From: an uncultured Pseudomonadota bacterium
GTDB taxonomy: Bacteria > Pseudomonadota > Gammaproteobacteria > Steroidobacterales > Steroidobacteraceae
Reading direction: 5' to 3'
Assembly (NCBI GenBank): GCA_903908265.1
Contig: CAIVRI010000088.1
Location: forward strand, 1 to 64,000
DNA length: 64,000 bases
The translations under genes and the position numbers were made by a program. A model generated the notes under the pieces. That model had not been told where the DNA came from and ran no database searches. It saw only the letters and a list, made by a program, of their open reading frames with translations. Within the stretch, counting starts at the first letter, position 1; each line of letters opens with the position of its first letter. This document shows positions 3,859 to 20,986 of this stretch, one piece after another.

Positions 3859-4761
3859 ATGGAAAGCACACGCATGTTAGAAAAATTCCAGATAACCCAG
3901 ACCGACATACTGGCCTTACGTGAGGTTGGAGGCCTGCTAGAAAGTACAATTGAGCAGGTCGTCGCTGACTTTTATACGTGGCTGGAAGGACACGCGGAGT
4001 ATGGGCATTTTTTCGCTGGCAACCCAAAAATGCGTGCTCGCGTGCAGGCCTCGCAAGTCGAAAACTGGCGCACTTTTTTCGCAGCGTCACTCGACGATAC
4101 CTACTTCGCCAGCCGTCGTAACATCGCCACCGTTCATGCCAGAATCGATTTACCGAATGATATTTACCACGCTGGCATGCTTGTTTCTCTGCAAGGAATT
4201 ATCAAACGTTTACGCGAAATGATGCCGCGCTCAGCAGAACGCGAGCAACTAGAATCTTCAGTCATTAAGATGGTGTTCTTCGACACCTTCCTAGTCACTG
4301 AAGAAATATCGCGCGTGCAGAAAGAGAAGGTGATTCTGACTAGCAACGCGATGCAACAAATATCGACACCCGTTTTGCCGGTATGGGAAGGCGTATTGCT
4401 GTTGCCGTTAATGGGTGCAATCGACTCGGTGCGCGCGCAGGACATCATGAATAAAACGCTGAACAAAATAAGCGAAACCAGTGCGCGCATCTTTGTCCTC
4501 GATATCAGCGGCGTCACAATTGTCGATACGGCGGTAGCGAACCAGCTGATTCGGGTCACGAAAGCCACTGGACTGATGGGCTGCCAGTCTATTATCTCTG
4601 GCATATCCCCTTCGATTGCACGCACCTTGGTCGAGCTAGGCGCCCAACTCGGCGGCGTCAAAACCACAGCCACGCTGCGCGATGCCCTCGATCTGGCACT
4701 CAAGGAAATCGGGCCGGGTGATCCACGAAACACTACCAACCGAATTTCGCCGTTAGTTTAA
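3859..4761 (+). CDS. rsbR: RsbR-like stressosome sensor: globin domain plus STAS
   Basis: 300-residue stressosome scaffold/sensor. Residues about 8-160 match the protoglobin/globin-coupled-sensor domain. The proximal haem ligand is predicted as His93 in ATVHARIDLPNDIYHAGM, the same VH.RI.L context as in HemAT-type sensors. Residues about 170-285 are a C-terminal STAS domain with DISGVTIVDTAVAN. Thr224 in VDT corresponds to the phosphorylated Thr of RsbR proteins. A haem-bound gas, most likely oxygen, is the expected signal (inference from family). It is the first gene of a four-gene operon; rsbS follows after 31 nt, with a short T/A-rich gap. Gram-negative stressosomes with haemoglobin-like RsbR are known from Vibrio, so the architecture is precedented. 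Confidence 0.88.
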   Translation: MESTRMLEKFQITQTDILALREVGGLLESTIEQVVADFYTWLEGHAEYGHFFAGNPKMRARVQASQVENWRTFFAASLDDTYFASRRNIATVHARIDLPNDIYHAGMLVSLQGIIKRLREMMPRSAEREQLESSVIKMVFFDTFLVTEEISRVQKEKVILTSNAMQQISTPVLPVWEGVLLLPLMGAIDSVRAQDIMNKTLNKISETSARIFVLDISGVTIVDTAVANQLIRVTKATGLMGCQSIISGISPSIARTLVELGAQLGGVKTTATLRDALDLALKEIGPGDPRNTTNRISPLV

Positions 4762-4792
4762 GCGCTGCTGATACTACGCACCAACTTTCAGC

Positions 4793-5173
4793 ATGCGAGA
4801 TACATTCACCCGTAGCGCCGGCGAATCAGCCACCTCGACATTGGTCAATGGTTGTCTCGTGGTCACTCTTTCAGGTGAAATAGCCACTAGCCTCTCAACA
4901 TTGCAAGAGTATGTACTACGCCGCACCCAAGACTCGCAGGCACGTGCCGTATTAATTGAAATGGCCACAGTGCGATTTATAGACCGCTCGGAATTCGAGG
5001 GGCTCCGAGCAATGGTAGAAATGCTGCGTTTCCTCGGCACCCCTGCAGTCTTTATTAGTCTGCATGCGGGAATCGTTGCCTATCTGGTAGAAAATAACAT
5101 TGACACCTCGGGGCTGACGTTCAAAGCCCATCTGGAAGACGCGCTGCGCGATGGATTCGAGATCATCCGTTGA
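4793..5173 (+). CDS. rsbS: RsbS-like single STAS-domain stressosome protein
   Basis: 126-residue stand-alone STAS protein, the right length and position for RsbS, the partner that builds the stressosome core with RsbR and is phosphorylated by RsbT to release it. The STAS core is visible as CLVVTLSGEI (strand), RAVLIEMATVRFIDRSEFEG (phosphorylation loop) and AVFISLHAGIVAYLVENNID. The loop is unusual. Canonical RsbS reads ...(I/V)VDSF with the phospho-Ser directly after Asp, whereas this protein reads FIDRSEF. Arg65 therefore occupies the usual Ser position and Ser66 is displaced by one. Either Ser66 is used or the switch works differently. The stop codon overlaps the TTG start of the next gene, implying translational coupling. 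Confidence 0.8.
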   Translation: MRDTFTRSAGESATSTLVNGCLVVTLSGEIATSLSTLQEYVLRRTQDSQARAVLIEMATVRFIDRSEFEGLRAMVEMLRFLGTPAVFISLHAGIVAYLVENNIDTSGLTFKAHLEDALRDGFEIIR

Positions 5174-6261
5174 GCAGTAATTTTCGAGACCAAGTTGACT
5201 ATTCTATTAGCACCGAAGCAGACGTCATGCGGACGATCGCGCACATCTCTCAACTTCCCATGTTGTCTGATGCTACAAAAATTGACCAAGCTCTCGTCGC
5301 GACCATGGCAGCCGAACTGTCCTCCAATATCGTAAAGTACGCCGGTCATGGCCGACTGACAATCACGCGAACCGAACGTATAGGTACGGTCGACATCGAT
5401 ATCAGCGCGACCGATAACGGCCCAGGCATTAAGGATATTGATCGCGCGATGACAGACCACTTCAGTACGGGCACCTCACTGGGTCTCGGCTTGCCGAGTG
5501 TGCGGCGCATGGCTGACCATTTTTGGCTGCAGTCCTCGCCGCAAGGCGGAACTAGAATCTGTGCACGCAAGCGTATTGTCGGGACGCGACAACGTGTCGG
5601 CCAGGCAACGCCACCAGCGGGCTTTGCTACCCCTATTCACGTCACACCCACAGCGGCACCGCCAGCCGGATTCGCGGCGTCCAGCTGGGAGTTGGGCCTG
5701 AGTATGCGTCCCTGCCCGGGCTACTCGGTCTCCGGAGATCGCGCTCTCTCGTTACGCAGCGAGCGCGGTCTTCTACTGGGCATTCTCGATGCCTCAGGAC
5801 ATGGCCCACGGGCTGATGAAGTTGTTAATCGTTGTTGCGAAATTTTTTCATCGGCAACGCACGCCAACTTACCGCGACTGTTGGCTGAGATGGATTCTGC
5901 GTTACTCGGCAGTCTCGGCGCTGCGGCCGGTCTAGTCCATCTCGATACGGAAGATGGCTCATTCACCTATCTGGCTTTAGGTAATACACGGATCGGCCAT
6001 ATCGGCATCGCGCCCTGGACGGGATTCTCGAATGAAGGGGTCCTCGGTGGCGGAATTCGTCGCGCCGCCGTGCAAACTGGACAGTTACGCCGCGATGATC
6101 TGCTTTTGCTATGGACCGACGGCCTACCGGAATCGGGGTGCACTGCACTCGCCACTTCGCTGTCGTTCCGGCCCGCACAAGACATCGCTAGCGCACTTCT
6201 AAGGACACTTGCAAAACCTTATGACGATGCGGCTTGTTTGGTATTGCGGTGGCTCGGGTGA
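5170..6261 (+). CDS. Fused RsbT-like switch kinase and RsbX/SpoIIE-type phosphatase
   Basis: 363-residue two-domain protein. Residues about 1-135 form an RsbT/SpoIIAB-type GHKL ATPase: the N box [13 protein letters not shown] has Glu49 and Asn53, followed by DNGPGI (82-87) and GTSLGLGLP (102-109). Residues about 136-175 are a Pro/Ala-rich linker with a repeated PPAGFA. Residues about 180-363 form a PP2C/SpoIIE phosphatase with SGDRAL (Asp190), ILDASGHGP (206-213) and [12 protein letters not shown] near the C-terminus. In other stressosomes RsbT (kinase) and RsbX (phosphatase) are separate proteins with opposite effects on RsbR/RsbS; here one chain carries both. The start is a TTG inside the rsbS stop (TTGA overlap). 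The 3' end overlaps the downstream GTG, so the operon is translationally coupled throughout. Confidence 0.87.
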
Positions 6262-7871
6262 GCATTCTTGGCACGCTACCGCTTCCGCATATCCACGCGG
6301 TCTTTCAAACACGCCGCCGCGCCTACGAATTGGCGAAGGAATTGGGCGTAAGCGAATTCACGGCAAGAGGCTTTGCCGCGCGGGTGTCCGACATGGGCCG
6401 TTTGTGCTTAACAAGCCTCAGGATTCCCACCGTCCGAGTCAATTTGAATCGGGAAACTTACACCAGTGAGCTAGTATTCGAGTTCCATGACAACGCGCCC
6501 GTTGAACCACCAGCAGCTCCAATAGAGTCGGCCGCCGGATTCCAACTTTCTGCTGCCTGTCCAATTCCAGCAGCGTCGTGGACGGCAGCAAAACAAGAAG
6601 CCCTACGCGCATTACTGAACAAGCAAACGCGCGAGGAACTGACGGATAGCCTGCAGCAAAAGAACGCAGCATTGGCGGAAGCTGCGAAGCAGCTTGAAGA
6701 TGCATCACGCGCTAAGGGTGAATTTTTCGCCACCATGAGCCATGAGATACGCACGCCAATGAACGCTATCATTGGCCTATCAGGACTCTGTCTAGATACC
6801 GGGTTAACTGACCAACAAAAAAAATACATTTTAGGAGTGCACAGCTCTGCGAGAAGCCTGCTTTCAGTGATCAATGACATCCTCGACTTCTCTAAGTTCG
6901 AAGCCGGAAAATTATCTTTAGCCGATGCCGATTTTGAACTGCAGTCAGTCATGGATTTACTGGAGTCGATCGCAGGGCACCTCGCTTCTGAAAAAGGCAT
7001 CCAATTCAGTCTGTCAATTTCAGCAGAAGTACCGAGAAATTTACGCGGTGACGCCGCCCGTCTGGGTCAAGTTCTGCTTAATCTGGCAGCAAACGCGGTC
7101 AAGTTCACAAACAGCGGGTGGATCAATATCGCCGTATTACTCAAGCGAACGGGAGACGATTATAGCGAGCTTGAGTTCAGAGTCAGCGACAGCGGTATCG
7201 GCATCAGCATCTCTCAGCGCTCAAACTTGTTCATCGCCTTCAGCCAAATCAAAAAGTCAACGTCTCACGGTTTACACGGCACCGGTCTTGGGCTAGCGCT
7301 CAGCAAACGAATTGTCGAAATGATGGCTGGTCGCATATGGGTTGAGAGCGAACCAGGAGTCGGCAGCTGTTTTCATTTCACAGCCCGCTTCGGCCACAGT
7401 CAATATCGCTCCATTAGGCAACATAACTTAGACTGTAATCGACTAGATTTGGTAACAGAAGCAAGAGCCTGCCTCACTGGTGCCCGCGTATTAGTTGCAG
7501 AAGACAACTCTTTCAATCAATTGGTCATAGAGGAACTTTTGAAGCAAGCGGGTATCATCGTAAGACTCTGTAGCAATGGGCGCGAGGCGATAGAACGGTT
7601 AGCGGAAGAATCTTTTGACATCGTACTCATGGATTGCCAGATGCCGGAAGTCAATGGCTATGAGGCTACGAGGCTGATCAAGGCAGACTCTCTTCTTGCG
7701 AATCAGTGCGTGATTGCAATGACAGCGAATGCGGCGCAGGAGGATCGTGAGCGCTGTGTCGCCGCTGGCATGAACGATTTTCTAGCTAAACCGATCGATC
7801 CAGAAACCCTATATTTGCTACTGGCGAAATGGATACGCGCATCGGGACGCAGCCCTGAAACTACCCCGTAG
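6258..7871 (+). CDS. Hybrid histidine kinase, predicted stressosome output
   Basis: About 537 residues. The ORF opens at a TTG (6234), but the GTG at 6258 overlaps the upstream TGA as GTGA and is preferred. Residues about 10-90 resemble a degenerate GHKL-like helix ([20 protein letters not shown]) without a clear ATP site. A coiled coil (about 115-150) follows. Next is HisKA with the phospho-His in [16 protein letters not shown] (about residue 162), then HATPase with [19 protein letters not shown] and [18 protein letters not shown]-terminal receiver has VLVAEDN, the phospho-Asp in [15 protein letters not shown] and a conserved Lys in FLAKPI. There is no transmembrane segment. In Gram-negative stressosomes released RsbT is thought to act on a downstream kinase module; the tight overlap suggests this protein plays that role. 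No separate output regulator lies nearby. Confidence 0.87.
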
Positions 7872-19831: not shown

Positions 19832-20986
19832 TTAACCCGCCGCGGTCTCAGCTCGGATTAGCGGCAAGAAGAGATCGCGGATCTTGGCCACCAAATTGTC
19901 TTTTGCCAGCGGAAGAAAAGCTATCGCGTTAATCAAGCGCAACGACGCCAGAAACGCCTCGTTACGGCGGAAAAATTCAAAATCTTCGCTCGGCCGCGCG
20001 GCAAAGTATGCCGCAATGAAGTGTTCATAGAGGCGCCGACCGATGTCATTCGGGACCTTCGTGACAAACTCACAACTGCCTGACTCTTCGTAACCGTAAA
20101 CCATCGCGAGCAACCCGATGTCGAAAAGATAGTGCCCACGGGAAAGATCGCCCATATCAATGATCACCGCCTCGTCATTGCGAATCATGATGTTGCTGGT
20201 GTGCAGATCGAAGTGCACCAGATTATCAGCATCTGGGATCGCTTCGAGGCGCGCACCAAGCATCGCAACATCCTCGTCCGAAAAGGTGCCACGCAGATCC
20301 TCTATATTCATACGCAGTCGGTCTTTTAGATTCGGAAAAATAGCGGGATCCGCCATCTTGGAGTGGAACGTATGGGCAATTTCAGCGAGTCGGGCGCCGT
20401 GGAACTCGACAGAATCCGGCTCCTGGCGAATGAGCGCACTGAACAATTGCGCATCGAGCATTTCATAGATCACGCCGGTACGGTTTCCACAAGTAACCAC
20501 GCCGTAGGAGAGTGCTGTGGGAATGCCGGCAACAAAGGCGGCACGCGCGAACTCTTTTTCCTGCTCTGCGACGGCCGGTGCGACCCCTTCATTGTAGAGT
20601 TTGACGATTGTTTCGGCGTCGAGACGAAAGCACTGTCCGCAGACACCGGCGGACAGAAACTCTAGGCCTTCAATGGAGATCTCGCGCGCTTTGCGCCGCA
20701 CGCTAAAAATTTTCGTTAGTCCCGTCAAATCCAACACTTCGTGTACGACGGGACCGACATTCACGACCGTCAGGGTCGCCCCTTTAGCGGTCACTTCGCG
20801 CTGCAGGCGTAGGAAGATCCGTAGCCCGGCGCTGGAAACGTACTCGCACTGACCGAGGTCAACAACCAGATGACGCAAATCCGCTGACAACCATTCCCGG
20901 TCCAGTTCTTGGGCGTTCGTGCCATCTAGCCGGCCGGCCAAACACAGGACCAAAGTATCGCCTTCAATTCGACTAGAAATATTCAT
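19832..20986 (-). CDS. STAS domain fused to a phosphotransferase-like kinase domain
   Basis: 384 residues. Residues 1-100 are an anti-anti-sigma-type STAS domain: LAGRLDGTNAQELDREW, then CEYVSSAGLRIFLRLQRE, where Ser52 aligns with the phosphorylatable Ser of SpoIIAA/RsbV. Residues about 110-384 are a kinase-like/APH-type domain: ETIVKLYNEG (candidate ATP Lys129), HFDLHTSNIMI (258-268, catalytic loop HxDxxxxN) and IIDMGDLSRG (DxD-type metal motif, 275-283). Similar kinase-like domains occur in the TIGR02172 group of unknown function. The fusion suggests phosphorylation-controlled partner switching. Its place between the JmjC gene (76 nt upstream) and peptide deformylase (9 nt downstream) suggests co-transcription with both. 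The target is unknown. Confidence 0.82.
   Translation of the reverse strand: MNISSRIEGDTLVLCLAGRLDGTNAQELDREWLSADLRHLVVDLGQCEYVSSAGLRIFLRLQREVTAKGATLTVVNVGPVVHEVLDLTGLTKIFSVRRKAREISIEGLEFLSAGVCGQCFRLDAETIVKLYNEGVAPAVAEQEKEFARAAFVAGIPTALSYGVVTCGNRTGVIYEMLDAQLFSALIRQEPDSVEFHGARLAEIAHTFHSKMADPAIFPNLKDRLRMNIEDLRGTFSDEDVAMLGARLEAIPDADNLVHFDLHTSNIMIRNDEAVIIDMGDLSRGHYLFDIGLLAMVYGYEESGSCEFVTKVPNDIGRRLYEHFIAAYFAARPSEDFEFFRRNEAFLASLRLINAIAFLPLAKDNLVAKIRDLFLPLIRAETAAG

Follow-up and report, generated by a model that had tools for sequence, protein, structure and literature searches.

Globin-type stressosome operon with an RsbT-RsbX fusion and a putative RsbT-derived input domain on its hybrid histidine kinase

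The 64,000-nucleotide stretch of DNA analysed here (the window; positions 1 to 64,000 of contig CAIVRI010000088.1, from an uncultured bacterium of the Steroidobacteraceae) carries a stressosome operon of four genes at 3859-7871 on the + strand, which encode RsbR, RsbS, an RsbT-RsbX fusion and a hybrid histidine kinase, in that order. We propose that it is a variant globin stressosome in which RsbT, carrying RsbX with it, would be released from the scaffold and read by the kinase through a degenerate RsbT-like domain, and we give this model as a whole a probability of roughly 0.6. A globin stressosome with a two-component output is already described in Vibrio (Heinz 2022; PMC9237108, PMC4976288), and the newness of the window operon lies on the output side, in the N-terminal domain of the kinase, a proposed input domain. 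An earlier interpretation made from the letters alone (the sequence-only reading) had centred on the fusion, did not note the Vibrio precedent and missed this domain, which we regard as the more informative feature and the most interesting lead.

The N-terminal domain of the output kinase

The C-terminal part of the kinase contains HisKA (4.6e-20), HATPase_c (5e-26) and REC (3e-27) domains according to Pfam, in line with the proposal of the sequence-only reading that a hybrid histidine kinase is the likely output. Residues 1-108, by contrast, match no Pfam family. RsbU_N (PF08673), described as a modular RsbT-binding domain in other stressosome outputs (PMC9237108, PMC12143880), was not found at the kinase N-terminus, whereas the positive control L082 gave RsbU_N at 3.9e-9, and an RsbU_N identity was rejected for want of a Pfam match. 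The kinase is organised as follows:

6258-6581, + strand: degenerate RsbT-like domain, with the homology strongest at about 6282-6509 (hhalign, whole-genome profile hits)
6585-6713, + strand: signalling helix or coiled coil, predicted by AlphaFold2 as a helix at residues 110-152 (shallow alignment, medium confidence), with a 13-residue stretch conserved in the relative L028
6711-7814, + strand: HisKA (about 6711-6908), HATPase_c (about 7047-7388) and REC (about 7488-7814), from Pfam

A profile of the N-domain was built from kinases encoded behind rsbX in the window and in L028, L030, L033, L034, L036 and L083. Aligned with an RsbT profile by hhalign, it reached a probability of 97.8 and a score of 76.7, compared with a maximum of 23.8 for 60 column shuffles, 10.5 for the reversed profile, 14.0 for histidine kinase CA domains and 10.6 for an RsbX profile. 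Moreover, a six-frame whole-genome search with the N-domain profile retrieved RsbT genes (G551 at 9.6e-9, together with G474, G329, G419, G562 and G385). The homology covers the first strand of RsbT, two helices and then the following strands. The N-box Asn, the DxGPG motif and the ATP lid are lost in every member, indicating a degenerate domain that is presumably non-catalytic. By sequence, the kinase N-domain is a decayed homologue of RsbT.

The same domain is found at the head of GGDEF proteins (L134-L137) and of PAS-GGDEF-EAL proteins (L078, L079), each time directly behind rsbX. In this it behaves like RsbU_N in other outputs such as that of L082. Kinases from some further operons begin with an entire RsbT-type HATPase and plausibly represent an intermediate stage toward the degenerate domain. 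The N-termini of Vibrio D1 (hhalign probability 12%) and of the L075 kinase look similar by eye, but hhalign did not support homology in either case. In L134-L137, RsbR is cut down nearly to the STAS domain alone (frames of 142-161 residues) and the output consists of the degenerate RsbT-like domain and GGDEF.

Several observations weigh against our interpretation. The N-domain of the window alone scores moderately against RsbT (probability 74, rising to 88 with L028), and a strong score is reached only with the wider family included. AlphaFold2 predicts a helix-helix-strand-strand-strand arrangement for the N-domain with a medium predicted local distance difference test score (pLDDT 68, two-sequence alignment), for which Foldseek found no significant match in the PDB. 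The predictions with two sequences per alignment gave pLDDT values of 68 (medium) and 54 (low), and with such thin alignments the Foldseek result is uninformative; a PDB profile search with the N-domain likewise found nothing. An interaction between RsbT and D1 of V. vulnificus is reported in PMC9237108 to have been tried and not demonstrated, the homology of D1 to the window N-domain being itself unsupported. Lastly, the canonical phospho-Ser of RsbS is not conserved in the window, where Arg takes its place and Ser follows one residue on (IDRSEF).

The RsbT-RsbX fusion

HATPase_c and SpoIIE/PP2C domains share one open frame, 5170-6261, as the sequence-only reading had recognised when it placed RsbT and RsbX in one chain. 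The fusion comprises three parts:

5170-5589, + strand: RsbT kinase domain, with N-box E49/N53, DNGPG D82 and GLGLGL (HATPase_c, 3.3e-12)
5590-5685, + strand: Pro/Ala-rich linker of about 32 residues, poorly conserved relative to L028 and a low-confidence region in the model
5686-6258, + strand: RsbX-type PP2C domain with the metal-binding Asp motifs SGDR, DASGHG, TDG and DDAA (SpoIIE, 3.2e-10)

The T half retains its ATP-site motifs (E49/N53, D82 and the G-rich motif). The X half matches PDB profiles of 3zt9 (1.1e-10), which we take to be the Moorella thermoacetica RsbX-like phosphatase, and of RsbX 3w40 (6e-5), and no RsbU is among its PDB matches. Judging from these motifs, the T half is probably an active switch kinase and the X half an active phosphatase.

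A contig scan with RsbR as query returned one close relative. The independent genome L028 has the same four-gene order, an RsbR that is 69% identical and a fusion of 370 residues that is 53% identical over its full length; conservation between the two fusions extends to both enzymatic halves but not to the Pro/Ala-rich linker. L028 is a metagenome-assembled genome titled Bordetella parapertussis, a species label that is doubtful for a metagenome bin and not to be trusted. A wider survey of 399 sampled genomes from the phylum added five more with a fused RsbT-RsbX and no separate rsbT (L075-L079), so that the fusion occurs beyond the window genome, a point that the sequence-only reading had missed. 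The two fusions do not share an internal start from which RsbX could be made separately, the in-frame ATG near the start of the X half being present in the window only. A term-based search of a limited literature found no description of an RsbT-RsbX fusion without a separate RsbT.

Two other accounts of the fused frame were weighed. It could be an assembly or sequencing error that merged two overlapping genes, for separate, overlapping rsbT and rsbX do exist in the relatives L030, L033, L034, L036 and L048, and in L030 and L036 they lie in different frames. Yet a 53%-identical fusion with a long, divergent linker in an independent genome, together with the five further cases, refutes such an error, to which we assign next to no probability. 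The fused protein could instead belong to the ATP-binding SpoIIE phosphatases, a family that the sequence-only reading had overlooked and whose HATPase-PP2C fusion is far commoner than that of RsbT and RsbX. These look-alikes, annotated as "ATP-binding SpoIIE family protein phosphatase" or "ATP-binding protein", have the identical two-domain order and occur in stressosome operons of Paraburkholderia, Variovorax, Halobaculum and others. There, however, they stand beside a separate rsbT, whereas the window operon has no second RsbT and the genome holds one significant match to the fusion. In the tree, the T halves of the window and L028 fall among stand-alone group-A RsbTs with a support of 96/86, while the ATP-binding SpoIIE HATPases form a clade of their own; forcing the two together was rejected in the approximately unbiased (AU) test (p-AU 0.017), and the X half also lies apart from the look-alike PP2C domains. 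Tree and AU test thus lead us to reject membership of this family as very improbable. The motifs, the tree, L028 and L075-L079 all concur in a genuine joining of RsbT and RsbX.

The fused proteins are monophyletic in 0/200 bootstrap trees, for the T half and the X half alike. A single origin of all fusions gave p-AU values of 0.15 for the T half, 0.11 for the X half and 0.052 for both joined, and is disfavoured without being strictly rejected. The sequences suggest that the fusion likely arose in at least two events, which is not proven. In four other operons (L085, L087, L088, L090), RsbX comes after a pair of consecutive stand-alone RsbT-like genes, possibly the unfused precursor of the HATPase-PP2C fusion family.

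Sensor, scaffold and genomic context

Gene calls and Pfam domains agree with the four genes delimited by the sequence-only reading:

3859-4761, + strand: rsbR, 300 residues, with a protoglobin sensor (about 3874-4314) and a STAS domain (about 4372-4647)
4793-5173, + strand: rsbS, 126 residues, one STAS domain
5170-6261, + strand: rsbT-rsbX fusion, 363 residues, start codon TTG, overlapping the rsbS stop
6258-7871, + strand: hybrid histidine kinase, 537 residues, start codon GTG, overlapping the stop of the fusion gene

The gene ends had been described as overlapping throughout. This holds for two of the three junctions, namely rsbS with the fusion (TTGA, 5170-5173) and the fusion with the kinase (GTGA, 6258-6261); rsbR and rsbS are separated by a gap of 31 bases. 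The operon contains no sigma-factor or RsbUVW genes, as already stated in the sequence-only reading. Promoter and terminator scans gave chance-level results only.

RsbR is a globin-type STAS protein, as had been proposed, with Pfam matches to Protoglobin (8e-20) and STAS (3e-15) and a match across its entire length to the cryo-EM chain of V. vulnificus RsbR (7o0i_B, 1.8e-76). In the alignment, H93 is the proximal His, within the (V/I)HxR(I/V) motif common to 7o0i, AvGReg (2w31), HemAT and DosC, and Y39 is the candidate distal Tyr within an FYxWL motif. A proximal His and a distal Tyr are given as marks of this globin-RsbR class in PMC4976288. RsbR thus has the residues to be expected of a haem- and ligand-binding globin, and it probably binds haem with O2 as its ligand.

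RsbS, correctly placed second in the operon, has STAS as its sole domain (Pfam, 6.5e-6). At the phosphorylation site, the alignment shows IDR(S/T)EF in the window and L028 versus VDSF in Bacillus-type proteins. For Vibrio, a similar lack of conservation is reported in PMC4976288. Among the relatives, RsbS often lacks the canonical phospho-serine and has Arg, Gln, Tyr or other residues at the site. The Bacillus sequence L029 is an orphan RsbR and yields no RsbX or RsbU reference.

The operon is absent from the sampled members of the host's own genus, its G+C content of 53.0% is the second lowest when set against 60 tiles (4-kb tiles; window mean 58.3%), and its flanking genes differ from those around the L028 operon. 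On these grounds, the operon was likely acquired horizontally.

Proposed mechanism and rival output routes

In the proposed mechanism, RsbR and RsbS would build a STAS scaffold to which the T half of the fusion would be bound. In V. brasiliensis, Fe(II) RsbR at low O2 is reported to promote the phosphorylation of RsbR and RsbS by RsbT (PMC4976288). In the same way, Fe(II) RsbR of the window would favour phosphorylation of RsbR and RsbS by the T half, which would thereby be released. On its tether of about 32 residues, the X half would strip the phosphates from RsbR and RsbS and reset the switch, and a T half sitting on one subunit could bring X within reach of neighbouring subunits. Kinase and reset phosphatase would then be present at 1:1 and move together. 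The proposal of the sequence-only reading that fusion fixes the kinase:phosphatase ratio and makes the switch self-resetting is plausible, and the operon offers a natural system with this fixed ratio that would be useful for models of stressosome adaptation and reset.

On the output side, the released T domain would pair with the N-domain of the kinase, or the N-domain would compete with it for the STAS surface. Through the coiled coil, the change would reach HisKA and REC and then an unlinked phosphorelay. RsbU offers a precedent, being activated by RsbT, which binds its N-domain and orders a coiled-coil linker (PMC12143880). The degenerate domain and the coiled coil occupy the positions of RsbU_N and its linker, which suggests that released RsbT-X probably pairs with the kinase. 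Every contact and activity in this scheme is inferred, as are haem binding, the O2 direction and the onward phosphorelay.

The same genes could be wired differently. The T half might phosphorylate the histidine kinase on Ser/Thr and the X half reverse this mark, the N-domain then being only a substrate or a passive dock. Such a route has been proposed for Vibrio D1 (PMC9237108), the kinase motifs of the T half are intact and a phosphatase in the same chain would be apt for a reversible modification. However, the degenerate domain shows no obvious Ser/Thr acceptor conserved across relatives, and it shares its ancestry with RsbT rather than with known RsbT substrates; we consider this route unlikely. 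The N-domain might also mimic RsbT without binding it: by taking RsbT's place on the STAS scaffold it would dock the kinase there, and capture and release would then act on the kinase itself. That it retains the first strand and helices of RsbT and has lost only the ATP site fits a decoy of this kind, but the idea has no structural support, and we would not expect it to be the correct one. We favour the degenerate domain as the likely docking piece through which released RsbT(-X) would control the output enzyme.

Stressosomes without SigB pose the question of how the signal is handed over. Most downstream proteins of the main stressosome survey are described as having no recognised RsbT-binding domain (PMC9237108). 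A recurring RsbT-derived domain that heads the gene immediately after rsbX offers a concrete candidate that can be tested. More tentatively, and at somewhat less than even odds, many stressosomes without RsbU_N may signal via a single, hitherto undescribed degenerate and non-catalytic module of this kind on histidine kinases, diguanylate cyclases and cyclic di-GMP proteins by pairing with released RsbT; in the lineage of the window genome, the messenger would also bring the eraser.

Comparison with known stressosomes

The overall architecture of the window operon is closest in description to the rsbRSTX modules with D1/D2 of V. vulnificus and V. brasiliensis (7o0i; PMC9237108, PMC4976288). In both, a globin RsbR bearing the proximal His and the distal Tyr is followed by RsbS and then by RsbT- and RsbX-type domains; a hybrid histidine kinase lies directly downstream, and RsbUVW-SigB is absent. 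RsbX of the rsbRSTX module is described as a single-domain PP2C (PMC9237108), whereas the window operon joins X to T in a single frame, which makes it a variant and not a plain member of the globin-type module. The kinases differ as well: that of the window ends in a single REC without an HPt domain or an adjacent response-regulator gene, and its N-domain is RsbT-like by sequence, a likeness not established for Vibrio D1. HPt domains of the window genome occur solely inside larger proteins.

The ATP-binding SpoIIE operons of Paraburkholderia, Variovorax and Halobaculum resemble the window operon in that an HATPase-PP2C fusion is followed by a histidine kinase; they differ in their separate rsbT, in the clade of the HATPase and in that some of the kinases carry a full N-terminal HATPase. 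In Moorella thermoacetica, the stressosome output is an RsbU_N-GGDEF protein. This system shares with the window operon a phosphatase of the RsbX type (among PDB entries, the X half matches 3zt9 best) and a non-sigma output, but its proteins are separate and its output domain is RsbU_N instead of the degenerate RsbT-like domain. The RsbT-RsbU_N linker switch, as set out in PMC12143880, likewise combines an RsbT-type protein with a modular N-terminal input, a coiled-coil linker and interchangeable effectors (PP2C, histidine kinase, GGDEF), its input being the four-helix bundle of RsbU_N where that of the window is RsbT-like.

Other operons encountered in the comparison contain three successive RsbT-like HATPases each (L039:3516-9972, L040:5235-10779, L043:3723-9836, L044:4514-7941, L045:3442-7632), of which the first is an RsbT on its own, the second is joined to a PP2C domain and the third forms the complete N-terminal domain of a histidine kinase. 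This arrangement points to GHKL domains that pair with one another in a network. An 11.9-kb plasmid record of Aeromonas dhakensis (L047, NZ_CP121799.1) bears a largely unannotated operon for a PAS-RsbR, RsbS, RsbT, RsbX and a hybrid kinase, with frames broken in several places. Elsewhere in the window, at 19832-20986 on the - strand, a protein of 384 residues combines a STAS domain with a domain that by eye resembles a phosphotransferase of the aminoglycoside/choline-kinase type (HFDLHTSN ... DMGD motifs).

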